Source: Amphibalanus amphitrite (Eukaryota > Arthropoda > Thecostraca > Balanomorpha > Balanidae). Taken from it: a stretch of DNA of 64,000 nt. Below are positions 1,002-51,312 of this stretch, in pieces. The stretch is taken from contig NW_024881790.1 in NCBI RefSeq assembly GCF_019059575.1, positions 186,001 to 250,000 of the forward strand, given 5' to 3'. Below the pieces are notes generated by a model. It ran no database searches and had not been told where the DNA came from. It saw only the letters and a list, made by a program, of their open reading frames with translations. A program made the translations under genes and the position numbers. Each line of letters opens with the position of its first letter. Position 1 is the stretch's first letter.

Positions 1002-3633
1002 ATGGAAACCGATGCTGTTTTACCAGACACACCGCCAGAACTGACACAGTCGGAACTCAGTCAGATATTGGAGGAGCCGTCCGTTCCCCCCAAGCCAACG
1101 TGCCAGACTTCAAGAACTGATTCCTGCTGACGCCTCCTCCGCTGAGAAGCGAGAACTGTTCGCGAACGGTGGTACTGTGTTTTCCGGTCGGTGCAGTCCT
1201 GTGGAGGTACGTTGTCTTCTGGCGACCTTGGAAGAGACCGACTTGCGCCGTCTTCGTGAGAAGCTGCACGACAGCCTAGCGACAGCGATCCCCGCCACCG
1301 CTGGGCGGCCACTACGTAGCCGGCAGTCAGGGAACATTAACGCCCTCGCCGACGACTGCTGGGAGCTGGGATACTCCGCCGCTCAGTGCCAGCTTACCCG
1401 CCGCACCGACAACCACGTACTTAACCCGGCAGTTGCTGGGGTATTTCGCCACCCACCGTTTGCTGGGGGGGGGGGGGCGTTAAACGCCCCCAGCCGATAA
1501 CTCGAGAACCAATAGGCGCAGCGAAACGCACGAGGCGGCAAACGAAAGAACGCGACGAGACGCTTCAGATGAGTACTTTAAAGTTGAATTTTGAGGTCAC
1601 AGGTCGGGTCAAGGTCAGGTCAAACACCTGAAATCGGGCTTTCAGTAGCATGGACTTCGCAATGGGCGCCTCTCGTCATAAACTCTGTCAAAACGGTGCA
1701 CAATCCATCATGTAAGGCCTACAAAAGTGTCAGCTCCATGTAGGGGTCACTCAAGCATAGGTCAGGGTCAAGGTCAGGTCAACCGGGTAGGCACATATCC
1801 CCGAAAATAAAAACTGATATTCGCAGCCTGTGACACATGTTCAATGGGTAATTTGGAGCGTAGAACACGATAGTGACATTCATTTTATCATATGTGTACG
1901 TGGTTGGCTCAAAAAGTTCAATTTAAGAAATTCATGTATCATGGTCGTGAAGTAGTCCCGAGAAATTGCCAAGATTCAGTTCAAGATTTTGGAAAATGCG
2001 GAACGATAATCAATAATCGAAGATAGCCATTTGATTGTTCATGGTATTGGCAGTCTAATGGCGTTTACCGCATGTCTGTAGGTCTATTCTGTGATTTTAT
2101 ATGATTTTTTGAATATATGCCGTTTTTGGTCGAAAACTCAGAAATCATGACGTCACTAAAACCTCGATATCTCAAAAATTTTCCAAACGATTTTTTTGAA
2201 ACTTTGTCACAATAATCTTCAATAAATTCTCTACAGGTACCAAAAATTTGGCGCGCCTGCGGCGCGCCGTTTTTATACTATGGCCCGGCGAAAAAAGTGG
2301 GGGCGTTTAACGCCCCCCCCCCCCCAGCAACTCGCGGGTTAAGCCGGCCGGTAGAACGCCGCTGCCGTCGTCGAGTTCGGTAAACGAACCGCCCCCCGGT
2401 TTGGTCAGCGCTGCTACCGTGGAGACCTCCCTGCGCTACGTCATTGAATCGCAGCTGCGGATGGACAGAGAACTGGAGGAGCTACGGCGGCGCGCAGCTG
2501 CTGCTGAATCTCAGGGAGCTCGGCTGCAACGTCTTGAGGAGCAGCTGTACGAGCTGCAGCGGGCCTGCGCCGCCCGTGACGCTAGAATCGACGAGCTTGA
2601 GGATCAGCTGCGCAGTTCTCTAGGCCGTGAGGCTGCGAACCAGTCACCAGCAGGCGAAGGCACGGCCGCCCAGTTGAACCAGGCACGCTTACCTGCCGCT
2701 AGCAGAGGTGACAATGAGACGCAGCCTGCCGGAGCCCGCCCGGTTACCACCGCCAAAGATATCGCCGCCGCGATAGATCTACGAGCGCTTGGGAAGGCAA
2801 TGGCGGATGCAATCCATTGGCAAACCGGTGACTCAGACTCGGAGAGCAGCTACGAAGGGGGCCAACGACCTGTCCAGCACCAGGGTGGCGGTGCGCCTGT
2901 GCCTGCAGATCGACAGAATCCCGTACCATCGGCGCGACCTCAATCTCCACCGCGCTCGTACCAAGGCACCGGCTCGACCCGTCAGGAGGTCACGACCCGA
3001 CCTGACAACTTCAGTCTCGCTGCTGAGCGGACTGTCATGACTGGGTCGGGAGCCGCCTCTGATCTGGTACTGACTACTGCAGATGCTCCGCAGCCAGACA
3101 CAAAGAAGTTCATTGTCAGTGGTTTCCGTCCAGATGCGCCACACCACGCCGTACACGACTTGATACAGTCAGTAGCCGGAAACTTGTACGGCTTCCATCG
3201 CCTGCCTTTCAACGGACAGTCACCAGGAAGGGCATATATGTTTGAGGTTGCCGAGGCTCGCTCTGTAGTTATCATGGACCCTGGACGCTGGCCGACAGGC
3301 CTCAGCGTTCGGCCGAAGGCTGACAAGGGTCACCGACGGAGGCGCTTTCGGGCCACAAATCAGTCGGTACAAAAGGAGCGACACGCCCCAATCAATATCA
3401 CCCGGTTCAGTGGCACCAGACAGCACCAGTCCGCCCAGCCGAGCGCCGCCACCCACTCGCAGCGGAGCTCAGGCGCAACTACTGGGTACTCCCACGAGCA
3501 CGGCGAGTGGACAACGGCGCGACGCCGTGGACGGGATTGGCAGAACAACCGCACCGTCTCCGACCCCTGGGGCACAAGCGGCAGCGGCTGGCGATGGCAC
3601 GACGACGACGTGGCCCCACCAGCACGCCGCTAG
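1002..3633 (+). pseudogene. LINE ORF1 (coiled-coil protein), frameshifted and split by insertion
   Basis: The first ATG at 1002 opens a frame starting METDAVLPDTPPEL. A shift of frame near the C run at about 1085-1091 is needed to continue into the next open frame, which runs to the TTAA at 1421-1424. A 914-bp element lies there. After it the same frame resumes at 2341 and stays open to the stop ending at 3633, so the two parts join in frame across a single TTAA. Just downstream of the insertion (about 2404-2630) is a Leu/Glu/Arg-rich heptad region typical of a coiled coil, followed by a Pro/Ser/Gln-rich linker and a conserved-looking region at about 3100-3330. In LINEs ORF1 proteins bind the element RNA and form RNPs; that role is inferred. 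No RRM or CCHC knuckle is visible. Confidence 0.75.
1425..2338 (+). mobile_element. Family B TTAA-flanked non-autonomous element, nested in LINE ORF1
   Basis: Flanked by TTAA at 1421-1424 and 2339-2342. The termini begin CCCGGCAGTTGC and end GCAACTCGCGGG. The left end is doubled: a second TTTGCTGGGG block lies about 28 bp inside the first GTTGCTGGGG. A G-run/C-run hairpin with core GCGTTAAACGC sits at the left and its complement GCGTTTAACGC at the right. An inverted copy is at 30979-31898. The TTAA duplication is the hallmark of piggyBac-type insertion, so mobilisation by a piggyBac-like transposase is inferred; no transposase is encoded. Confidence 0.9.
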
Positions 3634-6600
3634 TCTTCACTCGCCTAACGACTGTCTGCTCTCCGTCGGCACCTATAATTGTGAGGGTTTTCTGTCCGCC
3701 TTCAAGTATATTGATGATCAGGTTCTGCCATTTTGTGACATATTGGCCCTATCAGAAAGCTGGCTGTCGCGTGCGGAGGAGGCGTACGCGGACAGAATTC
3801 TTGCCGCCGCTGGATATGACTCTCTCCAGGTGTTCCAATCATTTTCAATGGAAGCCCCGCCCGGGCCGGGAGAAGGCAGAAGACGCGGCGGTCTGATTGT
3901 TATTTGCCGCCGCCGACCGGGACTGACCTTCAGGTCACTTGATTGCGACGCTCCACGCCTGTGTGGCATAACGGCACTGTTCAATAGGCAGCCCGTGCTG
4001 AATGTCATCGGCTGCTACTTGCCGTTTTTGGGACGGGTCCGGCGGCAACTCTGATGAGTACGACATTGTCACAGCCAAGTTGGACGCCTTGATTGCTGCG
4101 CAGCGCCCCTCTGCCCCCGTAGTCTTAGTTGGAGATTTCAACTGTGCACTACCGAGAATGACAGCGGCGCAACGCCCATCACAGTGGCATCGGCTCAAGG
4201 GCTTCACTCGACACAGCGTCGCTATGCAGGACCTACTGGACCATAACGAGCTTGTTGTAGCAGAATTTCTATTCCCCCAGCCGATGGACTTCACTTACTC
4301 GCGTGGTGCCTGCCAGAGTCATATAGATCATATAGCCGTGCCGTGTGATCTGCTCCCGGGCATTACTGACTGCCAAATTCTGCCTCTGCACGCTGAGAAT
4401 CTCAGTCCGCACCAGCCTCTCGTCTGCCGTGTTTTGGTGTCCGCTGCAGCACCACAGGAGACATCAGGTACCGCCGACACCACCCGCAGTACTGCAGCCC
4501 TTGACACAGAAGTTATCTGTTGGAACCGCGCCGATAGAATAGAAACTTACAGACGAACGCTGGGTGACCTGCTCGATAGGAATCTATCTGTATGTGGCGA
4601 GTCTCTGGATGCTCTGAATGCGACAATAACTCACCGCATACTCACAGCTGCTAGAGCGGCCGGTTGCACCAGGAAACAGCACCGACCCAAGCCCTGGTGG
4701 ACTCCGGACACAGCGGCCGCGCGCAACCGCGTCCGTTTTTGGCTCCACATCTGGACCAGTTGTGGACGACCACTCGGTTCCACCGTCCACTGCTGCTATC
4801 GGACTGCACGGCGGGAATACCGGAGGGCGCGTCGCGCAGCAGCTCTGGCCCCTGTTCAGAAAGAAGCCCGGCTGCTTCATCAACTTCGAAAAGATGGCAA
4901 CGTGAGCGGATTCTGGCGCCGTGTCAAGAGAGTCCGCCGAGGCGAGGTATCCAGTGGGACAACGCGTACGGCCTCAGAGTTTGCTACTCATTTTGAGGCG
5001 GTTCACAGGGACGACTTCACGCTGCTAGATGCCGATCAGTCTCGGATTGCCACTGCAGTTGAAGAAAGAGCACAGCTCTGCCTGTCGGCGGCTCGTCCTC
5101 GCACCGTCACTCCCGACAAAGTCGCCGGCCTGCTCAGACGCCTTCTGCCCGGTAAGGCGCCGGGCGCGGATGGAGTGACAGGGGAACACCTTATTCACGG
5201 CTGCTCACCTGCGTTGCTGACCGCCCTGGCTCGCCTTATGTCGGCCTGTTTTACTACATGTGACGTTCCGGACGCGTTCTCCGAGAGCGTCATTATACCT
5301 CTGCTGAAAAAATCGCAGCTCGATCCAAACAACTTGGACAATTACCGGCCCATCAGCCTGACGACGTGTACCTCCAAGCTGCTGGAGATGCTGGTACTGG
5401 ACGAGCTAGACGGCAGCTTCAGGCCCCATGGGCTTCAACTCGGGTTCGCCACGCAGCGCGGCACCAGCGAGGCCTCACTTCTTGCCAGTGAGACCATCCA
5501 ATGGAACCGGCATCACGGCTTACCTGTCTATGCTGCGAACCTGGACGCCAGGAAATGTTTCGATAAGATCTGGCACGACGGGCTTTTTATGCGCTTAGCC
5601 TCGTACCTCAGCCCCAGCTCATGGCTGCTGATGCTGACTTGGTATCGTCAACTCACAGCCCGCGTGACATTTGCTGGCTCCACGTCCAGAGCCTTCCGTG
5701 TCTGCCGCGGCACCAGGCAGGGCGCTATCCTGTCACCAATGTTCGCGAACGCTTTCCTGCGTCCTCTTGTGACAGCACTGGACGCGAGCGACCTCGGCGC
5801 GGACATATATGGTCATCATGCGCCGGCTGTATGCTACGCTGATGACCTGCTCCTCCTAGCTACAAATGCTAAAAACCTTGATACCATGCTGAAGCTGGTT
5901 GGCGACTTTGCTCAGCGCTGGAGGCTAGAGTTCGTCCACCCAGAGCCAGCCAAAACTAAGAGCCACTGCATTATCTTCGGCCAAGAGCTACTAGCCCAAG
6001 AGCCCAGATGGAGTCTGTCGGGTCAGAGGCTGAGAAACCACCAACAGTCTGAACATCTCGGCGTCTTACTGGACAGCAGCCTGTCGGCCGCACCGCATGT
6101 CCGACACCGCACGGCAAGAGCGCGGGCTAGCCTGTACAGCCTTGCGCCTGCCGGCATGCTGGCATCTGGGCTCTGTCCAGCAGATAAATGTTTTCTCTGG
6201 AAGACTGTGGTTCAGCCAGCACTGACGTACGGCTGTTCGTCCGCTCCACTCAACTCAGCTGACATCGAAGAGCTGCACGCCACTCAGACAGCGACCCTCA
6301 AGACGGCGCTGGGGCTGCCTCGCCGCGCCCACCACTCAGCGCTCCTTGCTGCTGCCGGTATCGCCCCAGCACATGAGCTGATTCGGTCGGCATGCTTCCG
6401 GGCTGCAAGTGGTGCTCTGCGGTCCGAACACCGTCTCCAGCAGGCATTCCTCTCGGGCCTGACGAAGTTGGCCATGTGCCCCGACTTGCTTGGCGACTCT
6501 CTTCTTCTCCAACTGTCCCGCATGTGCGGAAACGACTTCTCTGCCGTGCTCGAGGCAGCTGCCGGACGGTCGTGCAGTCACAGGGTGACGCCATCGCGCG

Positions 6601-6722
6601 CCCCAGACGGACTGGCAGATAGCATCCGCTTCTTGATGAGGGACAACAGCCAAGCTTCGCGTCGCCTACTACGACTGCTGACATGCTACGTCCCACCGGG
6701 GGCCGTGGCCCCTGTGACCTAA
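3410..6722 (+). pseudogene. LINE ORF2: AP endonuclease plus reverse transcriptase, one frameshift
   Basis: The frame from 3410 overlaps the end of ORF1. It becomes recognisable at about 3654, where LSVGTYNCEGF starts an exonuclease-endonuclease-phosphatase fold. The T run at 4025-4029 shifts the frame, and the protein continues in the frame that stops at 6722. The endonuclease continues with VLVGDFNCALPRM and SHIDHIAV, matching the family's GDFN and SxIDHI boxes. The RT contains GKAPGADG, NYRPISL, a catalytic Asp in NLDARKCFDKIWH, GTRQGAILSP and YADD (5835-5846). A C-terminal region of about 250 residues, with no extra nuclease, ends the ORF. The protein would nick target DNA and prime cDNA synthesis there. 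Apart from the frameshift the frame is intact for more than 900 codons, so decay is recent. Confidence 0.9.
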
Positions 6723-7168: not shown

Positions 7169-7692
7169 CTAGCACGGTTCGTCGGAAGGTCATCTCAGGC
7201 TCAAAAGAAACGGTATATACCATTCGAAAGCTGACGGTGAGCTGAATCCAAAAATGTATTTTTTATCAAAATCGATCGATGGCCTTTTTTGAAAATTGCG
7301 TTTTTGTAAAAACTTAATAATCTTTTATTCAACGGGCTGTCCCGGACATTCTTGAAAACATTAACATGTATTTTTGAGTTCCAGTGAAAGCTGAACGCCA
7401 AAAGAACAATATTTAGCGAAGCAATATTTCCAAACATTAATATGCGTCTCCCACAGCCGACAATAAGGCGCAATCACACATCTCAGTGTCACGATGGACC
7501 AAAGTCAGCCACACAGAAGCGTGAAATGACCCTTATCGACTCGCAGACCCGGCGCTCTCGGCCCTCCTGACCGGCGACGGAAAGGACGTTCGGCTCTCGT
7601 TCTACTAAACAAATGTAATATTTGCCACTTTAACTGTCCACATCGCTATTAAAGTTACTCAGGATATCTGTGAAGAAAATTCATTGTTCTGC
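7169..7692 (+). repeat. Left arm of the large palindrome (uninterrupted)
   Basis: Runs from ctagcacggttcgtcgg to the cattgttct block. It pairs with the complement of 13764-13912, 9461-9578 and 8007-8260. It holds the unoccupied TTAA at 7438-7441 and the unoccupied AATCTTTTATT at 7319-7329, which are the targets hit in the other arm. Confidence 0.9.
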
Positions 7693-8006: not shown

Positions 8007-8260
8007 AGAACAATGAATTTTCTTCACAGGTATCCTGAATAGCTTTAATAGCGATGTGGACAGTTAAACTGACAACTTTGACATTTCTTTAGTAGAACGA
8101 GAGCCGAACGTTCTTTCCGTGGCCGGTCAGGTGGGCCGAGAGCGCCGGGTCTGCGAGTCGATAAGGGTCATTTCACGCTTCTGTGTGGCTGACTTTGGTC
8201 CATCGTGACACTGAGCTGTGTGATTGCGCCTTATTTTCGGCTGTGGGAGACGCATATTAA

Positions 8261-9456
8261 CCCGCGCCCGGCTGGGGGTCCTGGATTTCCACGCCCTGCT
8301 GGGGGGGGGGGGGGTGTTTGAACACCCCCCCCCCCCCTTGTAACTCGGCTCCTGGGCCACGTAGCGATACGCGGAAGGCGGCGTTCGAAAGAACGTCGAA
8401 AATAATGACGAAATCACTTCAGTCAATTTTTTGGTCAGGTCAAAGGTCAGGTCACCAGAGGTCATTGAAGGCAAAATTTCGCCGATTTCCAAGTCGAATG
8501 TCGAAAATTTCCAAGAAGCCAACGCATAACTCGGGAACCAATAGAGCTACAGCGTCGCGGAAAAGCGCATTCGATAGCCCTATTAACGCCCTTTCTGAGT
8601 AATTCTCTCAGATTTGACCTAACGTCAACGGTTTTGCCTGCAGGGGGCAAAAACTGCAAAAATAGCCGATTTTTTCGGAAACAGTTTTTCTGCAATAACT
8701 TTTGACCCAAGCCTTGTACGAGCTTACTTTCACCGGCATCGTGTTCCTCTCGTCAAGACGCATCGAATGAACTATAACTTGACCTTGAAAGGTCAACTTG
8801 AAAATTTGACCTCAGGTCAAGTTCATGACCTGACTGGAAAGGGTCATGTTGCACATCAGTCGATCCGTATCGTCAAGCTGAACACATCTAAGGCGTTTTC
8901 ATCGCTCTAGCACGCCTCTATCAAAAGTTATTCGCGAAAAACTGTTAGATACCATTCGTGACCTAAGATGACCTCAGGGCATAAACAAGGGTCACGGACA
9001 CCATTTTCATGTTCAGTGTGTCTAAACCACTTGTAATTCGGTGTTTGGGAGTGTTTATAATGTCTTTCGTCCAAAAAAGGCGCATTTCAATTTTCTCCCA
9101 TTGACTTATAATGGGGAGGTCGCAAAATTGGCCTGACCTTAGGTCATCGATATCAAAATTCTGAGATATACATTTTGTACATGCTATTGCTCTTAGCAAT
9201 CGCTGAAAGTTTCAAAGCGATCGGTCACTCGGTGTAGCTATGACAGACATTGAAAATTTTTATGAGGTGAGGTCACTTCAAGTGACCTGGTGACCTGACC
9301 TTGAATGACCTTGGTCTGAAATTTTCACAACATGTGTAGAATTGATGTATGATAAGGTGTACCAAAAACGGCGGCGCTCCGCGCCGCCGTTTTTGAGATA
9401 TTCGCGAAAAACCACAAGGGGGGGTGTTCAAACACCCCCCCCCAGCAGGGCGCGGG
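8261..9456 (+). mobile_element. Family A TTAA-flanked element, nested in palindrome arm
   Basis: TTAA at 8257-8260 and 9457-9460. The left end is doubled: CCCGCGCCCGGCTGGGGG, then CACGCCCTGCTGGGGGG about 30 bp later. The right end is single, CCCCAGCAGGGCGCGGG. Subterminal hairpins have cores GTGTTTGAACAC (left) and GTGTTCAAACAC (right), embedded in G and C runs. The interior has multiple AGGTCA/TGACCT hexamers and a CGGCGGCGCTCCGCGCCGCCG hairpin near 9371. The empty target is visible at 7438-7441 in the other arm. Nearly identical to 19581-20764. No transposase. Confidence 0.95.
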
Positions 9457-9682
9457 TTAATGTTTGGAAATATTGCTTCGCTAAATATTGTTCTTTTGGC
9501 GTTCAGCTTTCACTGGAACTCAAAAATACATGTTTATGTTTTCAAGAATGTCCGGGACAGCCCGTTGAATAAAAGATTCGAAATATATATATTCATCGTA
9601 CACTTCAAACATGGTTAAATTACAGACACTTTACAAAAAAGCAGAGACATTGACAGCTTAACACAGCTGGCACGCAGGAACA

Positions 9683-12600
9683 TTAGTTTGCCCCGCGTGT
9701 AAAGTAGTAAGCCAGCTCTGGATCGTCCATATAGTCGCGGCTAGTCTCGACCTCGAGTCCTTGCGCCCTGAATTCTGATTTTATTTGTTGGAACAGTTCA
9801 CGGTAGCGTGCTAAACGAGCGGATATGCTGGGGTTATCAACTGCTGGAGATGGTGGAGAGCGACTATTAGTGTGGCTATCGGCAGTGATGGGTGATGGTG
9901 TTGTGTCAGAATTCATGCTAGGCGCTGAGGATGGTTGTGTGATATCAGTGATGGCATTGTTGGCTTGATGTGTTGGCAAGTGGATGTGGTCTGGGGTGGC
10001 ATGATTGTAACATGTGCCATTTTGGGTCTGTCGTTTTTGAGTTTGCCGTAGTCCTGGGGTCCATGATTGTACCTGATGTTGAACGGTGTCGGAACTCATG
10101 GGGAAATGGGTTGTCGATCCTATGATTGCTGCCGCGTTTCCACGTATGATGGCCATTGACAACCGTTGCCATAACCAAGCTGTTTCCCGTCGGTCACCGG
10201 TTGACTGTGATATACGTCTGCCGAGCTCCTTGAAAAATCGACAAGCAGCTGGGCCGACAACTCCAGACGTCTCAACTGCCACTGGTACGAAAAGGTATTG
10301 CTCAGAAATGGATGAATACCGCTGGATTTTGCGTTTTTCCGCTGCGCTAGCTGCTGAACCAGGGTTGATGGCACAAGCGACCATAGCAGTCTCGGAGAAA
10401 GTGTCCGTGCACGTGGCGTCCCATGCAAGACATTTTCCACTTGCGAATGGGAAAGTTGTTAGGCCGTCCGGGCGCTTGCCGTCCCCTCTGTCGAGGCCCA
10501 CCGGTTCCAGCACGGATGGGACGCCAGAGACGGAGAGGCTGCGTTTTATTAGGTCGTTTATGTGGGCATGTCGAGGGAATCGACCGGCGCTCTTCTGACA
10601 GGAAAGGGCGTGATGTCCCAGGCGTCCAACTTGGCGACCGCAAAGACGGCATGTGTGCGGCTCACAAATTGGGACTCCCAGACGAAGAGCGACCGCAATT
10701 CTGACAGTCTCTGGGTCTAGGTGAAGGCCGAGGCTGGGGACCGGTATCGCTTGCAGCCAGGCGGCGGTATGATCCTGACTGGCGGCAAGAAGACGAGCTC
10801 TGTGCATTTGGTCAGCGTCACTGAGTAGGTGGTCTCTGAGTGCTTTTGACGCCATATCATCCCATGTACGTTGTTTGCATGCCAACATGGGTTCCGGAAC
10901 TTCCGTGCTAGCTGTTGCCTTGACGAAACATTCTAAGGCAGGTTGCAAAGCGGAAGGCACTGTGTTGTCCAGAATGAATGGGATTATTGAAGTTATGAGA
11001 GGAGTCGCAGCCGTGATTGAAGAAATGTAGCAAGGAAGCGCGAGTCTCTCGACGGATCGAACGCCGAGACCACCGTGTCTTACGGGGAGACTTGCTTGCG
11101 TCCAGGCTCCTTCGGTAAGTGAAACGTTGCATACATCGGTAAGGGCAGATTTCACCGCATTGTCAATTGCCTGCAAGCCTGCTTTGTTCGTATACATTGG
11201 GCTTGAACGGAGCAGGTACTGCAGGCGAGGCGCAGAGATGTAATGGGCAAGAAAGAAGATTGCCGTGTGCGTATCCAATCCACGAATACGATCACAAAGA
11301 GTTGAGACGGTGTCTGTGGCGGTCTCTGTAGCAATTTGAATGCCTGTTTCAGTCAGAGGTGAGCCCAGTAAGGTCAAACCGGCGGGAGACGTCTCACTTA
11401 TCCCGTGGAGAGCGGCCTTTATTTCTCCTACAATTGAAGCGTGGACGCTGTCAAGAGCTGTGCCGAAAACGGCGAACTCGCACTTAGAGCCATTAAGCTC
11501 CAGACCGAGGTCCGGCAGCAGGTCTTGCAGTTTGACGAGATCATTGACGACCGTGCATACGGGGCCTGCTACAGTGGCGTCGTCCAAATACCATATATTT
11601 AATGGCGATTTCATGGAGCGCGCACAGTCATCAATAGCCAAAGAGAAGGCTATTGGGCCGAGCGGGTCGCCTTGCTGAACCCCGCTGCAAGATGAAATAA
11701 TGGAGCTTCCTATATGCAGAGGTGTCGGAGCGCTGTAAGCCTGATACGCCAGCCGGAAGATTTCTGGACAGCGAGCTTGAATACTTTTTAACAGCTTGTC
11801 GCGTCTCACCGTGTTAAAAGCGTTGCGCATATCGACCTTTACAAAAGCTGTTGGAGAAGGGTTTTTCAAGGCATCCGATATAAACTCACGAGCAGCGTGA
11901 ACAGCAGCCTCACAACCCAGTCGGGTGCCAACTCCAAGCTGCACTGGCCTGAAGTCGGGGGCTAAGAGGTCGGCTGCATGATGTGCTGCGATGCGGCTGG
12001 GCAGCCGCCGATAAACACTGCCGACGGCGATGGGGCGCAGTCCTCCATCCTTCTTCCGGAGGGCACAGAGAGCAGCCCCGAAGAAGGCGGGGCGGGCACA
12101 CTCAGGGATCCGGCCGTCCAGCGCCATGTTGGTGAGTGAGGTCAGTGACCTAAGTAGACGTCGACCAGGCTCTGACGCTTCGGCGGAGATGAGTTGCCGC
12201 AGGTGGAGAGGCCTCACTCCGTCCAGCCCTGCTGAAGACCCAGTCGGCATTGTCTCGATGGCTGCTCTGACCTGTTCATTGTTTACCTGGAGTGGACCGG
12301 ATTCGTGAGGCTCCGGTGGAGAAGGCAGCGCTTCATCGGGTGGAGCTGGAGGATGCTTACTTCTGAGAGCACTCACTATATCACAGCTAGGCTGGGTGTA
12401 CTCTTCCTTTGAGGTAAGAGCCCTCAGGGCCCCCTTTATGTCGCCATCAGCGCATTTTGAGGCAACTCGGTGGGCAATGTGGTTTTCAGACCGGGTTTTA
12501 GTCACTGTTCGTTGGATTGAGATAGGTTGGATACTCGTTAAATTATCCATGCTAGCTACCTGCTGCTTGATAGTTGAGGCGGCTGATTGATTTTTTCTAC

Positions 12601-13480
12601 CGGGGGTCTTGACTGGAGCGCGGAGAGCTAAATACGCAAATAGCATGAAGCGTTCCCATGCTTCAGAGCTCGAGTCGCATACCGCCTTATCAATGAGCTT
12701 GGAGAGGCAGTCTGCAGCAGAAGCCCGCGCCGCCTTCGGAATCCTTTTGATGACGGTGCAGTTGTTTCGCAGCTCAGCTAACCGTTCAGAGAGAGGCGTT
12801 GTGGTTGTAGGCGCTGTCACCGGGGTTATCTTACCAGGAGTGCATCTTGACTCGCTGAGAGTAGTTTGACTATGGCGACATTTACTGCAGTGCCATACGT
12901 TAAGCACGCGTGCTTGGGCCAGTGTGAGTCTGGCACACGATGTGTGCCAACGCAGCGCACAGTTATTGCACGTTATAGAGGCTTTCCTTGTCGAGAGACT
13001 GGGGCATCCAGCACATGAGAGCTGAGAGGACCCATGGCTGGATGTGCTGACTGAATACTCTGAACAATCCCGTGAATCTTCAGTTGCATAGGTGGGGCCA
13101 GGGTTGAGCTCGATATCGCCGGCGAGTAGGACTGGAGGGACGTACGCTAAGCGGCCCATCTGGCGAGTGGCGTCTGAATTGGCGCTGTATGCGACGCGCC
13201 TCCTGAAGTAGCGGGTTTTGACTTTACCCGTCCGTGTCACCTGCTTCTGGTGAAATAGCGGGATGGTGGGGAGCTCCCTGTTCCGCTCCCGGGGCAAGAT
13301 AAGGGGAAAGACGTCATCAGAGCACTTGCGGAGGTCTTGTGTTACTGGCGGTGTGGCAAAGCAGGCACCAAGGATTGGTGTTTGCCAAATAACGTCCAAA
13401 GCAACATGTTCGGCCAGGACGAGTAAAAATGCTGAAAACAGCATTAGGCGTCTCATTCTTGTGCTGATTGTGTGCCGCAT
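9683..13480 (-). CDS. Single-ORF retrotransposon polyprotein: 2A, PHD finger, RT, RLE
   Basis: First ATG at 13480, stop at 9683; about 1265 residues. Numbering below counts from the codon two upstream of that ATG. A hydrophobic stretch at 14-25 (LMLFSAFLLVLA) resembles a signal or membrane segment. Residues 120-131 hold LLAGDIELNPGP, a full 2A motif, where the ribosome would release the first 130 residues and continue. Next is a C4HC3 PHD-like finger (C158, C161, C173, C176, H181, C184, C200, C203). The RT lies at about 400-690, with SSAGLDGVRP, catalytic D552 in VKVDMRNAFN, QQGDPLGP and YLDD (633-636). The C-terminus has C946-x2-C949-x8-H958-x4-C963, then KRPDG (1004-1008), D1023 in AWDAT and E1072, as in restriction-like endonucleases of R2-type LINEs. 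A Ser/Thr/Pro-rich tail ends it. It would nick DNA and reverse-transcribe its own mRNA. All catalytic motifs look intact. Confidence 0.92.
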   Translation of the reverse strand: MRHTISTRMRRLMLFSAFLLVLAEHVALDVIWQTPILGACFATPPVTQDLRKCSDDVFPLILPRERNRELPTIPLFHQKQVTRTGKVKTRYFRRRVAYSANSDATRQMGRLAYVPPVLLAGDIELNPGPTYATEDSRDCSEYSVSTSSHGSSQLSCAGCPSLSTRKASITCNNCALRWHTSCARLTLAQARVLNVWHCSKCRHSQTTLSESRCTPGKITPVTAPTTTTPLSERLAELRNNCTVIKRIPKAARASAADCLSKLIDKAVCDSSSEAWERFMLFAYLALRAPVKTPGRKNQSAASTIKQQVASMDNLTSIQPISIQRTVTKTRSENHIAHRVASKCADGDIKGALRALTSKEEYTQPSCDIVSALRSKHPPAPPDEALPSPPEPHESGPLQVNNEQVRAAIETMPTGSSAGLDGVRPLHLRQLISAEASEPGRRLLRSLTSLTNMALDGRIPECARPAFFGAALCALRKKDGGLRPIAVGSVYRRLPSRIAAHHAADLLAPDFRPVQLGVGTRLGCEAAVHAAREFISDALKNPSPTAFVKVDMRNAFNTVRRDKLLKSIQARCPEIFRLAYQAYSAPTPLHIGSSIISSCSGVQQGDPLGPIAFSLAIDDCARSMKSPLNIWYLDDATVAGPVCTVVNDLVKLQDLLPDLGLELNGSKCEFAVFGTALDSVHASIVGEIKAALHGISETSPAGLTLLGSPLTETGIQIATETATDTVSTLCDRIRGLDTHTAIFFLAHYISAPRLQYLLRSSPMYTNKAGLQAIDNAVKSALTDVCNVSLTEGAWTQASLPVRHGGLGVRSVERLALPCYISSITAATPLITSIIPFILDNTVPSALQPALECFVKATASTEVPEPMLACKQRTWDDMASKALRDHLLSDADQMHRARLLAASQDHTAAWLQAIPVPSLGLHLDPETVRIAVALRLGVPICEPHTCRLCGRQVGRLGHHALSCQKSAGRFPRHAHINDLIKRSLSVSGVPSVLEPVGLDRGDGKRPDGLTTFPFASGKCLAWDATCTDTFSETAMVACAINPGSAASAAEKRKIQRYSSISEQYLFVPVAVETSGVVGPAACRFFKELGRRISQSTGDRRETAWLWQRLSMAIIRGNAAAIIGSTTHFPMSSDTVQHQVQSWTPGLRQTQKRQTQNGTCYNHATPDHIHLPTHQANNAITDITQPSSAPSMNSDTTPSPITADSHTNSRSPPSPAVDNPSISARLARYRELFQQIKSEFRAQGLEVETSRDYMDDPELAYYFTRGAN
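13094..13117 (-). other. 2A ribosome-skipping motif (DIELNPGP)
   Basis: The eight codons for D-I-E-L-N-P-G-P match the canonical D-[VI]-E-x-N-P-G-P and are preceded by LLAG, as in many 2A peptides. Skipping would occur between Gly130 and Pro131, separating a roughly 130-residue N-terminal product with a hydrophobic segment from the PHD/RT/RLE body that starts with proline. Confidence 0.9.
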
Positions 13481-13964
13481 CTTCAAGCCGGAAGAAACGT
13501 GTTTTGTTTTGTGAAAAAGCAGAGCTTGCTGACTAATCAGTCTGTTTTGAAACGTCCATGGACTTAAAGGAGCCCCTGTAGAACACCCAGAAGCGATAGT
13601 GACTGAAGTCCTCTTATTTTCGTCGTATGGAGGGTGGTAGCCTCACAACGTCACGTTATTTTTCAATGAAATTTTGCGTGGATGGGGCAGTTCTTGTGAG
13701 ACAATCGGACAGATATGACGCATCTAATTCAATCTTGAAAAGAAAGAAGATTAATAAAAGATTATTTATTTTTTAGAAAAACGCAATTTTCAAAAAAGGC
13801 CATCGATCGATTTAGATAAAAAATACATTTTTGGATTCAGCTCACCGTAAGCTTTCGAATGGTATATATCGTTTCTTTTGAGCCTGAGATGACCTTCCGA
13901 CGAACCGTGCTAGGCAATGCATATCCATGTGCCAGAATTGGGGTGCTGCTGCACGTGCGCACGT

Positions 13965-14487: not shown

Positions 14488-15580
14488 CTAAAATATGAAC
14501 CAGGAAGAGATATTTCTATTTAGGATTGGTTTTTGCTCACGAATGTACAGGGATTCCATTATCTTTCGATTCGAGTGATCTTTGGCTTTGTGTAAAATAT
14601 CCACTGACAAAGGGTGGTCAGGTAAGGTCTCACTAGCATGACATGCTCTAAAATGTTCACCCAAGGGGATGTCCCTAGTCGCGTTCTTTGCATTGAGCAC
14701 ATGCTCATTGAAACGTAATCTTACTGGACGCTTACATTCCCATATGTACTGTACACGCTCATCAGTCGAAGTTGAAGTGCATAGGTTGCAAGTGACGCAG
14801 TAAACCACCCCTGGTGTAGTACACTTGCCCTCGATTCCTGAACTGCATGCATTGCATATACGCCTGCCAGACGGGCACTCAGGACGCGTCAGGTCAGATT
14901 TGATCAGAGTAGGTATGCCTTAGGGTGTTTTTACTAGTCCACGCCACTTTTACGTTGAGTTTCGATTGTCTGACTATGTTATTTATCTTTGCACAGAGGG
15001 TCTCGTCGACATAAGCTAAGGAAAGGTAACTATCAACGTCACTTCGAGTTTGTCGCTGCCCCTGCTGCTGCTGGTGGTGGTGGTGGTGGTGCTGCTGCTG
15101 CTGCGGTCGCCGCTGATACTGTTGGGGCCGAGCGCGTCTAGAATTGCGCTGTTGTCGCATTATTTTAGTCCGTTGTCTTGACACTTCCCTTCGTATGCCT
15201 CTAATCATCTGGTTGGGATCCCCATTCTGCTCGAACATTTTCTGAACTTTGTCACATGACCTTGAAATTGCCTCTTCGGTTGACGAAAGCCTTAGCGCTC
15301 GTTTAAACTCGCTTCTAATGACAGCTTTCTTCGTTGTCATCGGCTGTGCCGATGAGTAATGAATGATGATTCCAGAGTGGCTGGGCTTGATGAAAAGCTC
15401 TGTCGACAGCTGTCCGTCCTTGTCAACCGATATTAGGGTATCCAGATACGGAATGAAACCGGAATCGAAAGAGTCCTCCATCGTGAACTTGATACTCGAT
15501 TGGACGGAGTTCATGTAGTCGAGGAAGGCCCGCAGCTCCTGATGAGAATGAGTGAACACCCCGATAGTGTCATCTATGTA
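14488..15580 (-). pseudogene. Penelope-like retroelement remnant (RT end plus GIY-YIG)
   Basis: Reading the minus strand from about 15580, the sequence starts at a YIDDTIGVFTHS block, the catalytic YxDD motif of Penelope RTs. It continues with FIPYLDTLISVDKDG and KPSHSGIIIHYSS, typical of the palm/thumb region. A Gln/His-rich microsatellite-coded stretch follows (about 15060-15110). After a frame break between 14894 and 14808 comes VVYCVTCNLC, YIWECKRPVRLRFNEH and DHSNRKIMESLYIREQKP, which is the GIY-YIG endonuclease domain. The expected Gly of YIGE is Trp here. Everything N-terminal to YIDD is missing. Not functional. Confidence 0.85.
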
Positions 15581-15961
15581 CAGGGTGGTCCAGATAAAAT
15601 GTTACCCGAAACTTTTTAATAGCAGGAAATCTATTTGCAATACACAAACAGCACATACCACATCTGAATGCCAACTTCGGGGGAAACAAGTTGAGTCCAA
15701 CACCCACATCGCCTAAGAGGAGGTGCTCTACATAGATGAGCCCCCTTACGCTCCAGAATGAGCGGCAGCCGGACTTCCTGGAGGTGCCGGATGGTGCGGT
15801 CGACCATGTCCACGCTGACTCGTCTCATCTCCTCGCTGATGGCCGCCTTTAGCTGTTGAATGGTCGATGGTTTGGTCTCGTGGACTCTGGACTTCAGCCG
15901 ACAACAATTGACGCCTGAAGCTATGCATGCTGTCACCAATAACTTTGGTCTTCGTAACCAA
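15581..15961 (-). pseudogene. Tc1/mariner-like transposase remnant with one terminal repeat
   Basis: The left end is TA at 15579-15580 followed by CAGGGTGGTCCAGATAAAA, which has the look of a mariner-group terminal inverted repeat. Minus-strand residues PSTIQQLKAAISEEM, DMVDRTIRHL and ERKGAHL match the C-terminal tail of Tc1/mariner transposases. The catalytic DDE/D core is absent. The insertion point is exactly at the YIDD codons of the Penelope remnant, so this element (or a deletion it caused) probably removed the rest of Penelope. Confidence 0.7.
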
Positions 15962-19483: not shown

Positions 19484-19580
19484 TACTGATGTTAATCTCA
19501 ATTTCAATGTAACGAATCGATGAAATGCAATATGGCATTTTCTGCGACATTGACCTGAGGACTGAGGTCAAATTTATTAA

Positions 19581-20764
19581 CCCGCGCCCTGCTGGGGGTC
19601 CTGGATTTCCACGCCCTGCTGGGGGGGTGTTTGAACACCCCCCTTGTAACTCAGCTCCTGGGCCACGTAGCGATACGCGGAAGGCGGCGTTCGAAAGAGC
19701 GTCAAAAATAATGACGAAATCACTTCAGTCAATTTTTTGGTCAGGTCAAAGGTCAGGTCACCAGAGGTCATTGAAGGCAAAATTTCGCCGATTTCCAGGT
19801 CGAATGTCGAAAATTTCCAAGAAGCCAACGCATAACTCGGGAACCAATAGAGCTACAGCGCCGCGGAAAAGCGCATTCGATAGCCCTATTAACGCCCTTT
19901 CTGAGTAATTCTCTCAGATTTGACCTAACGTCAACGGTTTTGCCTGCAGGGGGCAAAAACTGCAAAAATAGCCGATTTTTTCGAAAACAGTTTTTCTGCA
20001 ATAACTTTTGACCCTAGCCTTGTACGAGCTTACTTTTACCGGCATCGTGTTCCTCTCGTCAAGACGCATCGAATGAACTATAACTTGACCTTGAAAGGTC
20101 AACTTGAATATTTGACCTCAGGTCAAGGTCATGACCTGACCGGGAAGGGTCATGTTGCATATCAGTCGATCCGTATCGTCGAGCTGAACACATCTAAGGC
20201 GTTTTCATCGCTCTAGCATGCCTCTATCAAAAGTTATTTGCGAAAAACTGTTAGATACCATTCGTGACCTAAGATGACCTCAGGGCATAAACAAGGGTCA
20301 CGGACACCATTTTCAAGTTCAGTGTGTCTAAACCACTTGTAATTCGGTGTTTGGGAGTATTTATAATGTCTTTCATCCAAAAGAGGCGCATTTCAATTTT
20401 CTCCCATTGACTTATAATGGGGAGGTCGCAAAATTGACCTGACCTTAGGTCATCGATATCAAAATTCTGAGATATACATTTTGTACATGCTACTGCTCTT
20501 AGCAATCGCTGAAAGTTTCAAAGCGATCGGTCACTCGGTGTAGCTATGACAGACATTGAAAGTTTTTATGAGGTGAGGTCACTTCAAGTGACCTGGTGAC
20601 CTGACCTTGAATGACCTTGGTCTGAAATTTTCACAACATGTGTAGAATTGATGTATGATAAGGTGTACCAGAAACGGCGGCGCTCCGCGCCGCCGTTTTT
20701 GAGATATTCGCGAAAAACCACAAGGGGGGGTGTTCAAACACCCCCCCCCCCAGCAGGGCGCGGG
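19581..20764 (+). mobile_element. Family A TTAA-flanked element, copy 3
   Basis: TTAA at 19577-19580 and 20765-20768, with the same doubled left end (CGCCCTGCTGGGGG twice), hairpin cores GTGTTTGAACAC and GTGTTCAAACAC, and interior as 8261-9456. Divergence between the two copies is only a few percent by eye, so both were mobilised recently. Confidence 0.95.
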
Positions 20765-20784
20765 TTAAGTTAACCTTCTTAGGT

Positions 20785-41023: not shown

Positions 41024-42194
41024 ACGGTCGTCAAGTTAGATGTAAGTGAATCCTAATCTATAATCTAAGATTCGGAATCAGGTGAGCCCCTACGATTTGG
41101 ACCAAACTTGGTCAGTGGATAGTACGTAACGTCCTGATTACGATGCACCCAAAATCTAAGCTCGGCCCGCCATATTTACGAAGTTACGGATGTTTGAATT
41201 TCAAGGTCATTCGGGAGAGCCCCTACGATTTCCGTCAAAATTTGTGTACGGACACTCTAGATGCTCCTCATTACGAATATCACAAAATTCAAGCTCGGCC
41301 CGCCATATTTATGAAGTTACGGAGGTTTGAATTTCAAGGTCATTTGGGTGAGCCCCTGCGATTTCCGTCAAAATTGGTATATGGACATATTACATCCTCC
41401 TCATTACAAATATCATAAAAGTTAAGCTCGGCCCGCCATATTTTTCAAGTTACGTAGTCACAAAGTTACGGAATTTCAAGGTCATTCGGAGAGCCCCTCC
41501 GATTTTCGTCAAAATTTGTATGCGGACACATTACATGTTCCTCATTACGAATATCGTAAAAGCTAAGCTTGGCCCGCACTATCTCAAAAGTTAATGAGGT
41601 TTGAAACTCACTGAAATTCAAACCTCAGTAACTTTTGAAATAGCGCGGGCCGAGCCTAATTTTTATGATATTCGTAATTAGGAGCATGTAATGTGTCCGC
41701 ATACAAATTTTGACGAAAATCGGAGGGCTCTCCGAATGACCTTGAAATTCCGTGACTTTGTGACTACGTAAGAAAAATATGGCGGGCCGAGCTTAACTTT
41801 TATGATATTCGTAATGAGGAGGATGTAATATGTTCGTATACCAATTTTGACGGAAATCGCAGGGGCTCACCCAAATGACCTTGAAATTCAAACCTCCGTA
41901 ACTTCGTCAATATGGCGGGCCGAGCTTAAATTTTGTGATATTCGTAATGAGGAGCATCTAGAGTGTCCGTACACAAATTTTGACGGAAATTGTAGGGGCT
42001 CTCCCGAATGACCTTGAAATTCAAACATCCGTAACTTCGTAAATATGGCGGGCCGAGCTTAGATTTTGGGTGCATCGTAATCAGGACATTACGCACTATC
42101 CACTGACCAAGTTTGGTCCAAATCGTAGGGGCTCGCCTGATTCCGAATCTTAGATTATAGATTAGGATTCACTTACATCTAACTTGACGACCGT
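41024..42194. mobile_element. Fold-back element with 9-bp TSD (Mutator-like size)
   Basis: The whole 1171 bp is a near-perfect palindrome centred at about 41605, with termini ACGGTCGTCAAG and CTTGACGACCGT. It is flanked by a perfect 9-bp direct repeat, AAGGAAGCC, at 41015-41023 and 42195-42203. Each arm contains about four tandem units of about 125 bp (gcccctacgatttccgtc, then ctcggcccgccatattt, then gaatttcaaggtcatt). A 9-bp TSD with very long inverted repeats fits Mutator-like non-autonomous elements; that assignment is inference. Confidence 0.9.
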
Positions 42195-48712: not shown

Positions 48713-50012
48713 CTTACGTTTTGGGGGGGCCAAACAGGCCACTTTAGGCCTTTGGGGGGGGGCCATGGCCCCCGTGGCCCCCCCCCCTGGATCCGCCAGT
48801 GGCTGAGTACAGGAAGCGTCTGCTCCCCGACTCCGTGTGTATCGTGGGCCTGTCTAGCTGGTCCGCCTGTCTGGTTACTCGGCCGTGAACATCGCCCCGA
48901 GTCACCAGACTACCGTACAATGTCTCCGGCTGGCCATAGGCTAAAATTCGCTTTAACAGGGTCAGCGAATGGTACTGATGCAGATTCTTCGCTGTCAGCC
49001 ACTCCAGGTCTTTCAGCACGTCACTGATATAATCGAACTTGCGACGGCCCGAAATAACACGCGCACCGTAATTCAGCAGTTTCTGCAGTCGTACCATTTG
49101 CGTGCTACCACATACACCGTACACACTGATGCAGTACCGTACCAACGAGACAACGAGCGCCTGCACAACAGTGGAGAGCGTGTCTCGTGGGAGCGCGTGC
49201 CTGCTGTGACTCAGTCCGCTGAGTAGGCCGGTACAACGTCGCACAACGTCATCTACATGCACCGAGAATGTGATATTCTGGTCAAAAACTACGCCAAGGT
49301 TTTTGACTGAACGGGAGCCGAGAATCGTCGTGCCCATAAACTGTACTTGAATGTGAGGCATCTTACGGAGATTTTGACATGTTCCAATAACTATCAGCTG
49401 TGTTTTGTTTGCGTTAATTTTTATCCCGTTCTTCCCGCACCACAGTGAAAGGGCCGAAAGATTCTGCTCCAGACTGCGAACCAGCGCACCACTGTCCCGA
49501 GGCTTGCCGAACACAGCCAGCTGCACATCGTCGGCGTACTGCACGAGGCACTTATCATGCACGGTGTCTACATCGAGGTACAAAGGCATATCTGCGGCGT
49601 ATATCGAGTACAGCAGAGGGCCCAGCGCGGATCCCTGGAATGTGCCTATTGGGTTCAGCAGCGGCTGCGACAGCGTGCGGACTCCAGCTAGCGTGCCGGT
49701 AATACTTGTTGGTACTTGTTGATAGTGGTCTGATAAATAACTCTGAAACCAGCGCACATCGACATTGTACAGAGAGAGTTTGTTCAGCAGACGGTTGTGT
49801 GGGATCACGTCGAAAGCCTTTGACTTGTCTAACAAGCACAGCAGCGCCACCTGCCGGTTGTCCATCGCCTCAAGTATGCGGTCAGTCATAGTGAGCAGCG
49901 CCGTATCAGTTGAATGAGCACTGAGCAGTTCTGAAGCCGTGCTGGCAGGACGGGGATAGATTGTGGGATGTGAAATATTCGGACAGCTGTTCATATACTA
50001 CACGTTCGGTTA
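48713..50012 (-). mobile_element. 5'-truncated LINE insertion with 14-bp TSD
   Basis: TCTTAGCAATTTTT occurs at 48699-48712 and at 50013-50026 and brackets a minus-strand reverse transcriptase fragment. At its 3' side (48713-48802) lies a partial CACTGGCGGATCC-type miniature element (ccactttaggcct, then cccctggatccgccagtgg). The long TSD and 5' truncation within the RT are what target-primed reverse transcription produces. Confidence 0.8.
48803..50010 (-). pseudogene. LINE reverse transcriptase fragment, frameshifted
   Basis: The minus strand begins at RT block 2 (ERVVYEQLSEYFTSHN, then CQHGFRTA). It shifts frame near 49915-49935, then reads open to about 48800: LLDKSKAFDVIPHNRLLNKL with catalytic Asp, TFQGSALGPLLYS, QYADDVQLAV, KTQLIVIG and LGVVFDQNITF. 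The product is a CR1/Jockey/I-like RT lacking endonuclease and ORF1. The open frame runs on into the adjoining miniature element as a Gly/His/Pro-rich tail, which is not part of the RT. Confidence 0.88.
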
Positions 50013-50020
50013 TCTTAGCA

Positions 50021-51312
50021 ATTTTTTATTGTATATGAAGTCAACCGTAAGGTCACATATGGGAACGTATGAGCATCCATGCTGATACATCATTGCCGTA
50101 AAAAATATTTTTGCTTGTAATCCGCGGATGACGGGTAGGTATATCCCATAACGTGGGTGACTCGGGAGGGGATTCTGCATAGCTCCCCTGCTGTCTTCGA
50201 AACTACTCGTTCAATACTTAAAGTTCAAACGGCTTCTGATAGGAATAGCTGACAAGCGAAACCTAACTTTGTCACAAAAGGTCATTGAAAAGGCCATGGA
50301 AGGAAAATGTATACATTTTTAAGGTCATGCGACACATCTTTAATGGTCCATTTCGGCAAAAGCATCTAAAAATGATGTCATCTGGGTCGTCTGATTCGAA
50401 ACTATTTCCATTCGACAAATGATGGTCAGGTCACGGCGAGGTCAAAAAGGTCAAATTTTGAAGTTGAACATTCTCAACAAAAAAGATGTGCATCGGATGC
50501 AATTTGAGCTCTGGAACACGATGATGCTATTCGTTTTGGTTTTCGATGTCAAGAACGTACTGAAATTGCCTTTGCAATATCGAAAATTGTGATTAACCGA
50601 CTACGGTAAAATGCAAAAGCCGATAACATTACCATTTCTGAAGATATCTGACTGAAACTTTCCAAAAGCAATGCAAAGGTTACATACAAAAGCCAATAAG
50701 GTTCATTCTGGTCGATGGCTGCTCCCAAAAACTCTGAATGCTATCAACCATATCGGACATTCTTACGATGTTCTGTTGGCTGGATGTCTTTTTGCTTTAT
50801 TGAATTTGATCAGACTACATTCAGTTAAGACGACGTACATTTATTGGTCACCAGAAAGTATACTCACAAGTCAATCGACAATTGACAACCAACAAATGCA
50901 ATCGACACGAGCGTCGAGCACCCCTCAGCACAAGCAACTGCCGGGGGCGATTAGACGGACCGCGCTCCTCTCTCGCAGCTGATTGGTCAGCTGCCGAACC
51001 GCACGGATGTCAGCTGCACGGCCGCCGCCCGGCCGACCTGACCGGGGCCGGCCGGTCGGCGACCTGGCGTCAGTAGAACTGCAATAACTTTTGCCGGCAG
51101 TGTGATGCCGACCTTATTTTTTTCAGCAAATGAATCACAATTGTACGGTATATGTTATGGACGTTGTCTCGATGTGAAGCACGCTGTGCGTTTTTTGGTA
51201 GGCCTATGTAAATTTAAATATTGAAATCCTCAAGCCCTTCTGCTTTGTGCAAGTGTGCAATAATTAGCTTACAATAACTGAGTGGGAAGTTTTTTAGATG
51301 CACTTTTGTACT
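50021..51312 (+). repeat. Inverted duplication, arm 1
   Basis: Nearly identical, in reverse complement, to 60437-61907. Its left part (gattctgcatagctcccctg, then cgaaactactcg, then aaacggcttctgatagg) is a diverged relative of the family F right end, and it contains AGGTCA/GGTCA words. Identical short frames (for example 103 codons at 50671-50982) exist in both arms simply because the DNA is identical. Arm 1 lacks the 176-bp element present in arm 2. Confidence 0.9.

Follow-up and report, generated by a model that had tools for sequence, protein, structure and literature searches.

The inserted element and its open reading frame

A long interspersed nuclear element (LINE) is inserted in the genome of the barnacle Amphibalanus amphitrite, within a 64,000-nucleotide stretch of contig NW_024881790.1 (assembly GCF_019059575.1, positions 186,001 to 250,000) that was analysed as a whole and is hereafter called the window. 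The element encodes, in a single frame, a 2A/StopGo motif, a PHD-type finger, a reverse transcriptase (RT), a CCHC zinc knuckle and a restriction-like endonuclease (RLE) (Table 1). At the position of its short C-terminal tail, many of its relatives, including some from the same genome, have a ubiquitin-specific protease (USP) module.

Table 1. Features of the inserted LINE and its flanks in the window (TSD, target-site duplication; UTR, untranslated region)
Feature	Positions	Strand	Remarks
Inserted LINE copy	9579..13752	-	4,174 bp; 5' end ~206 nt shorter than in copies L010, L011 and L013; basis: TSD, empty-site paralogue, copies
TSD AATAAAAGATT, adjoining 3' end of element	9568..9578	.	11 bp
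TSD AATAAAAGATT, adjoining 5' end of element	13753..13763	.	11 bp
Empty-site paralogue (repeat without insertion)	7169..7432	-	257/264 bases identical to joined flanks
Remaining 5' UTR, upstream of first Met (residue 55 of the frame)	13481..13752	-	putative start at Met55
3' untranslated end	9579..9682	-	terminates in a short AT-rich stretch whose length differs among copies; no poly(A)
Uninterrupted frame of 1,319 aa between stops	9683..13642	-	chance of no stop ~5e-23 at base composition
Hydrophobic stretch LMLFSAFLLVL, residues 66-76	13415..13447	-	signal-like by eye
Basic block upstream of 2A, residues 141-165	13148..13222	-	conserved in close relatives
2A/StopGo motif AYVPPVLLAGDIELNPGP, residues 166-183	13094..13147	-	predicted break Gly182 / Pro183
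PHD-type C4HC3 finger, residues 210-255	12878..13015	-	pattern and profile
RT core RVT_1, residues 529-725	11468..12058	-	E 2.4e-19; YLDD at 11579-11590
CCHC zinc knuckle CRLCGRQVGRLGHHALSC = CX2CX8HX4C, residues 998-1015	10598..10651	-	RLE-LINE spacing
RLE, residues 1016-1150	10193..10597	-	RH 1024, RPDG 1057, D1075, KIQRY 1105; WD also present
C-terminal tail, residues 1151-1319	9686..10192	-	disorder predicted, with the exception of a helix and DPELAYYF close to the end

The joined flanks of the element align without gaps to window positions 7432..7169, with 257 of the 264 bases the same and the 11-mer AATAAAAGATT present once. This empty-site paralogue confirms the 11-bp TSD that the preliminary description had assigned to the element; a shared flank word of that length appeared in 4 of 2,000 shuffles. 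The TSD, the empty site and the existence of 5'-truncated copies are hallmarks of target-primed insertion of an RLE-type LINE. All the motifs of the preliminary description (DIELNPGP, a C4HC3 finger, YLDD, a CCHC knuckle and RPDG/D) were recovered in one frame, on the minus strand. The LINE, described there as intact, is so with respect to this uninterrupted frame but not to the 5' UTR, part of which is missing in comparison with three other copies (Table 1). The PHD finger displays the C4HC3 pattern, its Pfam PHD score (E 0.0039) fails the cut-off of Pfam itself, a profile built from 61 rows of relatives matches solved PHD fingers with E 1e-4, and one relative, P0053, passes the Pfam cut-off.

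Assignment to the RLE branch

A search with the encoded protein yielded 628 proteins, of which 120 were listed; counts over 121 rows given below include the window element. In RLE-type LINEs, a CCHC knuckle of the form CX2-3CX7-8HX4C precedes the endonuclease (PMC5678591, in excerpt), and the knuckle of the window element has this spacing. The characteristic RLE residues RH, PD, D and KX2(K)Y are conserved in 115-118 of the 121 rows; in the window element, the last of these reads KIQRY, with the second K, a less conserved position according to the same excerpt of PMC5678591, replaced by R. Both the RLE residues and the restriction-endonuclease fold match R2, so that the C-terminal domain is the endonuclease that had been proposed. 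The RT also matches R2 by profile (E 1.2e-23), the Foldseek ranks 1-7 are all R2, and R2 is ahead of L1 in both sequence and Foldseek comparisons. No match to Exo_endo_phos, the Pfam domain of the apurinic/apyrimidinic endonuclease (APE), was detected across the 1,319 aa. An APE-type assignment was considered and rejected, given that no APE domain was found and R2 is ahead of L1 by sequence and Foldseek.

Thus, the element is a LINE of the RLE branch, as the preliminary description had suggested from the RLE motifs, and this conclusion is borne out by the residues, the fold and the lack of a detectable APE domain. The RT phylogeny does not put the window element within an APE clade, but this tree contains few references and long branches and does not separate R2 from the APE rows. 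Two traits of the R2 clade were not seen: no rRNA was detected in the window at Rfam thresholds and the flanks differ among copies, so that there is no sign of insertion in 28S rDNA, and only PHD-type Pfam matches were found upstream of the RT, at the place of the N-terminal zinc finger (ZF)/Myb region.

Scans of viral contigs revealed no relative of the element, and neither did a scan of genome contigs with a single protein query. The same kind of scan with the A1 query yielded eight loci; the titles of their records designate bacterial metagenome-assembled genomes (MAGs), but we infer that these loci are mis-binned eukaryotic DNA. A search with the N-terminal region (residues 64-300) produced five matches, none beyond the relatives already found. 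Two relatives, P0042 and P0053, possess an N-terminal zf-C4 finger of the nuclear-receptor type (E 4.4e-15 and 3.4e-8, respectively), an apparent capture of another host domain.

The 2A motif and the leader

The 2A core is D(V/I)ExNPGP, and a class with a leucine-rich, LLLLSG-like upstream sequence has been reported as functional (PMC12846837, in excerpt); that article is a survey of virus sequences in which the word 'retrotransposon' appears only in the reference list. The window element contains the exact core, GDIELNPGP, preceded by PVLLAG, which resembles the LLLLSG-like class. The motif did not arise in any of 2,000 protein shuffles, and its expected number from composition is 1.8e-6. A D(V/I)ExNPGP motif is present in 8 of the 121 rows, that is, in the window element and seven relatives, or in 8 of 28 when the count is restricted to rows that extend 45 aa or more upstream of the PHD finger; in P0006, the sequence reads TPGP instead of NPGP. 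Within the same genome, six of the 23 open reading frames (ORFs) read contain 2A; as L014 and L037 correspond to the same locus, these represent five loci. Three proteins (P0003, P0004 and P0007) combine 2A with the start of a USP module; the USP frames read in this genome have no 2A, several of them lacking the N-terminus and those with full-length N-termini also being free of the motif. An additional case, L003:3-3329, comes from a record titled as a Clostridia MAG that probably holds eukaryotic DNA: this frame is ~31% identical, with GDVEANPGP near its start, before the RT, and with RLE-like residues recognized by eye near the C-terminus.

The canonical 2A core noted on an RLE-type LINE is thus confirmed and recurs in relatives, and in the window element it is predicted to cause ribosome skipping. 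The motif is too short for its descent from, or independence of, the 2A of APE-type elements to be traced. In the close group, the basic block before 2A (~25-30 residues) is conserved and the hydrophobic start varies; a hydrophobic stretch near the start is present in the window element, P0003, P0007, P0008 and P0045. The hydrophobic peak of the leader is mildly unusual, being matched in 127 of 5,000 shuffles of residues 54-183.

Copies and recent movement

The 807.6-Mb assembly (2,644 contigs) was searched for further copies; the counts are lower bounds, drawn from the best 35 of 3,609 candidates for the LINE, 40 of 56 for the 3' 500 bp and 67 of 3,443 for USP2. A second open copy of 1,319 aa resides on contig C771 and is 99.69% identical over 4,157 bp. 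The 3' 500 bp have at least 44 matches, and at least 12 places (of at least 354 bp, the window included) show an identity of 98% or more. Three copies (L010, L011 and L013) share ~206 nt of additional 5' sequence beyond the end of the window copy. The LINE family is recently active. The proposal that the window copy itself can still move fares less well: the family moved recently, as the near-identical copies attest, but this copy is truncated at its 5' end.

With respect to the further checks that had been suggested, another copy with an open frame exists, and a site preference is not apparent: the junctions of 13 loci, among which at least L028 and L030 represent internal breaks or degraded ends, have no common site, and the flanks differ among copies. 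Among eight other copies inspected for TSDs, L012 has a 10-bp repeat adjoining both ends; L017 (12 bp), L022 (10 bp) and L011 (9 bp) have candidate TSDs only, the shared words being ~20-40 nt from one end; and L010, L013, L024 and L027 share words of just 5-6 bases, which are no evidence of a TSD.

C-terminal modules: types and discordance with the RT-RLE tree

Many relatives carry PF00443 downstream of the RLE, where the window element has its short tail. The UCH matches are strong (E 1e-35 to 1e-65) in P0007, P0009, P0012, P0019, P0024, P0029, P0038, P0050 and P0086, and both catalytic boxes (Cys and His) are present in 12 of the 20 rows checked, the other eight ending before the His box. 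By sequence comparison, the modules of 27 rows were divided into classes A, B, B2, C, D, E, TAIL1 and TAIL2. The nearest solved proteins are USP35 for class A (2.9e-50), USP2 for class B (1.6e-109), USP30 for class C (5.4e-49) and both USP15 and USP2 for class D (2e-14); class E is a single row with the module start only. TAIL1 and TAIL2 are short tails with DPELA-like motifs, and the window element belongs to TAIL2. Members of TAIL1 (P0002, P0017, P0022 and P0074) and TAIL2 (P0001, P0045, P0051 and P0084) contain a DPELARYL-like motif and a YxxLxxEMK helix-like stretch; by eye, the two motifs are in opposite order in the two classes, as if permuted.

The distribution of module types is at variance with the RT-RLE tree. 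On a tree of 27 of the 121 rows, the module classes need 19 changes, with a minimum of 7 and a shuffled mean of 18.5 (164 of 200 shuffles gave a count as low); a quick tree of 49 of the 121 rows, with the tails merged as one class, agrees (16 changes vs a shuffled mean of 16.7). The approximately unbiased (AU) test, which covered A, B, TAIL1 and TAIL2 and not B2 or D, rejects a single clade for each of the four (4.6e-26, 3.8e-6, 4.8e-4 and 5.6e-48, respectively); class C, with two near-identical rows, forms one clade on the 27-row tree. The discordance is also evident in individual pairs. The RT-RLE part closest to that of the window element belongs to P0009 (81%), yet the module of P0009 is of class D; conversely, P0025 (class A) and P0012 (class B) are 84% identical in RT-RLE. 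The TAIL1 proteins P0002 and P0017 agree at 86% of 86 tail positions vs 61% identity in RT-RLE, and the class A proteins P0003 and P0043 are 66% identical in the module vs 46% in RT-RLE.

USP-bearing sister elements in the same genome

Five contigs of the same assembly harbor elements of ~5.9 kb (L049-L053) with single PHD-RT-RLE-USP frames of 1,757-1,836 aa and a USP35-type end; these elements are 98.9-99.5% identical over the longest aligned part, and their flanks are unrelated. A USP2-type element, L041, has a frame of 1,472 aa. The frames of L042, L043 and L044 are 1,225, 1,225 and 1,032 aa long; L042 and L043 have common flanks and are possibly haplotypes or products of duplication. Other module classes are represented in this genome by L045 and L046 (D), L040 (B2), L014 (TAIL1) and L015, L016 and L056 (TAIL2). 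Frames of this genome match P0024 and P0029, two proteins deposited under A. amphitrite, with 97.8-99.6% identity, which points to this barnacle or a near relative as the host. Three of the USP35-type elements (L049, L050 and L053) contain a second finger-like Cys/His stretch upstream of the PHD finger, as well as a Pro/Ser repeat whose length varies among copies; P0019 has two PHD stretches in Pfam.

Origin of the USP2-type module

The USP2 tree comprises 35 rows, with 24 of 115 plain USP proteins (from 118 additional rows). The A. amphitrite protein P0124 appears to be the cellular USP2, without RT and with an end branch of 0.002, and groups with 24 other arthropod USP2-like proteins on one side of a branch with 100/99 support. 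The USP2 modules of LINEs are beyond this branch, with end branches mostly of 0.16-0.26 and a longer one for P0038. Among them, P0029 shares a branch with P0123, an A. amphitrite gene model that combines an LCAT domain with a USP region whose identity with the P0029 module is 99%; this region is probably a piece of a LINE absorbed by gene prediction. The host linker before the catalytic domain is partly kept in the LINE proteins (P0030, 55% over 62 aa; P0012, 51% over 45 aa).

In the genome, four P0124 matches of 94-99% identity (aa 1-271, 268-334, 482-534 and 533-600) are spread in an exon-like manner over C271:661360-673520, and continuous copies of approximately aa 294-661 occur at many other places. 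Six of the best 35 LINE matches (on C673, C158, C202, C1955, C1070 and C114) continue into a match to USP2 in the same orientation. Given the exon-like host USP2 on C271 and the continuous copies elsewhere, the natural reading is that the USP2-type module was captured from spliced RNA of the host USP2 gene.

Mechanism and alternative explanations

Altogether, we consider it probable that the window element represents a recently active RLE-type LINE family with 2A-mediated skipping and swappable C-terminal USP modules. The mRNA would be read as one frame, and the ribosome would skip the Gly182-Pro183 bond, releasing a leader peptide of ~128 aa and a PHD-RT-RLE enzyme of 1,137 aa. By homology, the enzyme may be anchored to the tails of histone H3 via its PHD finger; the RLE would nick the DNA, and the RT would copy the RNA from the nick. 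Because copying begins at the 3' end of the RNA, a template switch in the linker behind the RLE could join the 3' part of another element, or a host mRNA, to the 5' part of the element. The proteases might protect the proteins of the element against ubiquitin-dependent degradation or have ubiquitinated histones as their substrates where the element inserts; that they serve the element is the least certain part of the scheme.

A more specific account seems to us evenly poised: the C-terminus of barnacle RLE-type LINEs would be a cassette site that repeatedly acquired deubiquitinases of at least four USP types via template switching onto spliced host mRNAs, with the modules exchanged among LINE lineages nearly independently of RT-RLE and kept active by selection because deubiquitination helps the element, either by protecting its own protein or by modifying ubiquitinated chromatin to which the PHD finger is bound. 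In this account, the window copy would be a member with a small tail and a leader released by skipping. Such selection is suggested by the finding of multiple USP types at the same position and of the two catalytic boxes in the majority of the rows checked.

Several observations weigh against parts of this interpretation. In the VIA comparison on the whole model, R2 and L1 are tied (23.9 vs 23.8), which is not decisive alone, and the PHD score of the window element is under the Pfam cut-off. The window copy and L010 differ by 6 synonymous and 5 non-synonymous changes in the coding part, which gives no indication of strong selection over that period; given its shortened 5' UTR, the window copy may be without a promoter of its own. 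Only the USP2 type has a traced host donor and, for that donor, aa 335-481 and 601-662 of P0124 are not among the matches listed on C271. The LINE USP2 modules have longer end branches and change faster than the host gene, so that selection is just suggested, and the short-tailed elements thrive without a protease, which is not generally needed.

An alternative, which we rate slightly short of even, attributes the discordance of the modules to numerous independent captures of the same small set of host genes instead of an exchange among LINEs. The USP2 tree points to repeated capture: the LINE modules branch off near the host sequence, and the inner branches involved are short and poorly supported. 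The tails, however, point to some exchange between LINEs: TAIL1 does not correspond to any known host gene, but its members P0002 and P0017 are far closer in the tail than in RT-RLE, and P0003 and P0043 of class A differ in the same direction. A very improbable alternative is that the fusions of LINE and protease are artefacts of assembly or gene models. Many of the listed rows come from short contigs, and P0123 joins a LINE-type USP to an unrelated gene, but near-identical, uninterrupted PHD-RT-RLE-USP frames with unrelated flanks on five contigs of this assembly, with L041 as a second kind, argue to the contrary.

The leader invites other explanations. It might function as a recoding signal sequence, comparable to that of sea-urchin NLR proteins, such that failed skipping would send the whole enzyme into the secretory path and successful skipping would leave it in the cytoplasm, with 2A serving to sort the enzyme and not to free a separate leader protein. 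The hydrophobic stretch near the start of the window element and four relatives and the sea-urchin precedent (PMC4981915, in excerpt) are compatible with this, but the conserved basic block between the hydrophobic stretch and 2A suggests a task of the leader itself, the hydrophobic peak is only mildly unusual, and the called proteins P0002 and P0005 lack a hydrophobic stretch; we regard this possibility as unlikely. Still less plausible is an inactive or marginal 2A, with the element making one fusion protein: this would fit TPGP in P0006 and the lack of 2A in those USP elements of this genome whose N-terminus is complete, and is at odds with the exact core in the window element, in seven of its relatives and in five further elements of the genome, as well as with the leucine-rich upstream stretch similar to the functional class (PMC12846837, in excerpt).

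Host-type deubiquitinases are found here inside the replication protein of LINEs. The copies are dispersed, nearly identical and have open frames, and for USP2 the donor is traceable; this suggests that mobile elements can equip themselves with enzymes of their host. If these enzymes work, the ubiquitin system would be countered or exploited by a selfish element, and the 3' coding part of a retrotransposon would be a mosaic. A single barnacle genome offers many replicate captures for asking how LINEs acquire genes.

Other features of the window

A second LINE, at 2311-6719 on the plus strand, consists of a 440-aa frame (2311-3630) and an endonuclease-RT frame (4002-6719; RVT_1, 6.4e-25) with a weak Exo_endo_phos match under the Pfam cut-off. 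Two minus-strand frames are RT-related: one at 48747-49997 (RVT_1, 2.9e-18) and one of 235 aa at 14897-15601, with an RT-like YIDD motif recognized by eye. The repeats of the window include an inverted pair (50023-51213 / 60707-61899, 99.5%), a self-inverted block of 1.2 kb (41024-42194) and a direct pair (8255-9464 / 19575-20771, 96.5%) that terminates ~100 bp from the LINE insertion.

Relationship to known systems

The element resembles R2 in the RT and RLE fold, the spacing of the knuckle, the RLE residues and the single frame; it differs in having a PHD finger in place of ZF/Myb, a leader with 2A and a location outside 28S rDNA, and the identity in the structural alignment is ~15-20%. Trypanosome CRE/SLACS-type elements insert at spliced-leader sites. 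The records of two relatives, P0074 and P0104, bear the name 'Retrotransposable element SLACS protein', which hints at a possible kinship; in the family of the window element, in contrast, no common target site was seen. Odon et al. reportedly described 2A in APE-type LINEs in 2013; the presence of 2A in a LINE protein is the common trait, whereas the window element has an RLE and no detected APE domain. The 2A motif on the RLE branch makes skipping there directly testable.

In the open-licence literature searched, we found no report of USP modules in LINEs, of their variety or of their discordance. The sea-urchin NLR proteins with a signal-2A arrangement (PMC4981915, in excerpt) likewise have a hydrophobic N-terminus followed by 2A; these are host immune proteins, whereas the protein described here belongs to a LINE and has a basic block in between. 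For proteases in RLE-type LINEs there is a precedent, namely, the N-terminal Ulp1-like protease of NeSL and one Utopia element (PMC4640811, in excerpt). As far as that excerpt goes, these elements and the sister elements of the window copy are alike in being RLE-type LINEs with a cysteine protease, and differ in that the protease is Ulp1-like and N-terminal in the former and a C-terminal USP of several types in the latter, the window copy having none.
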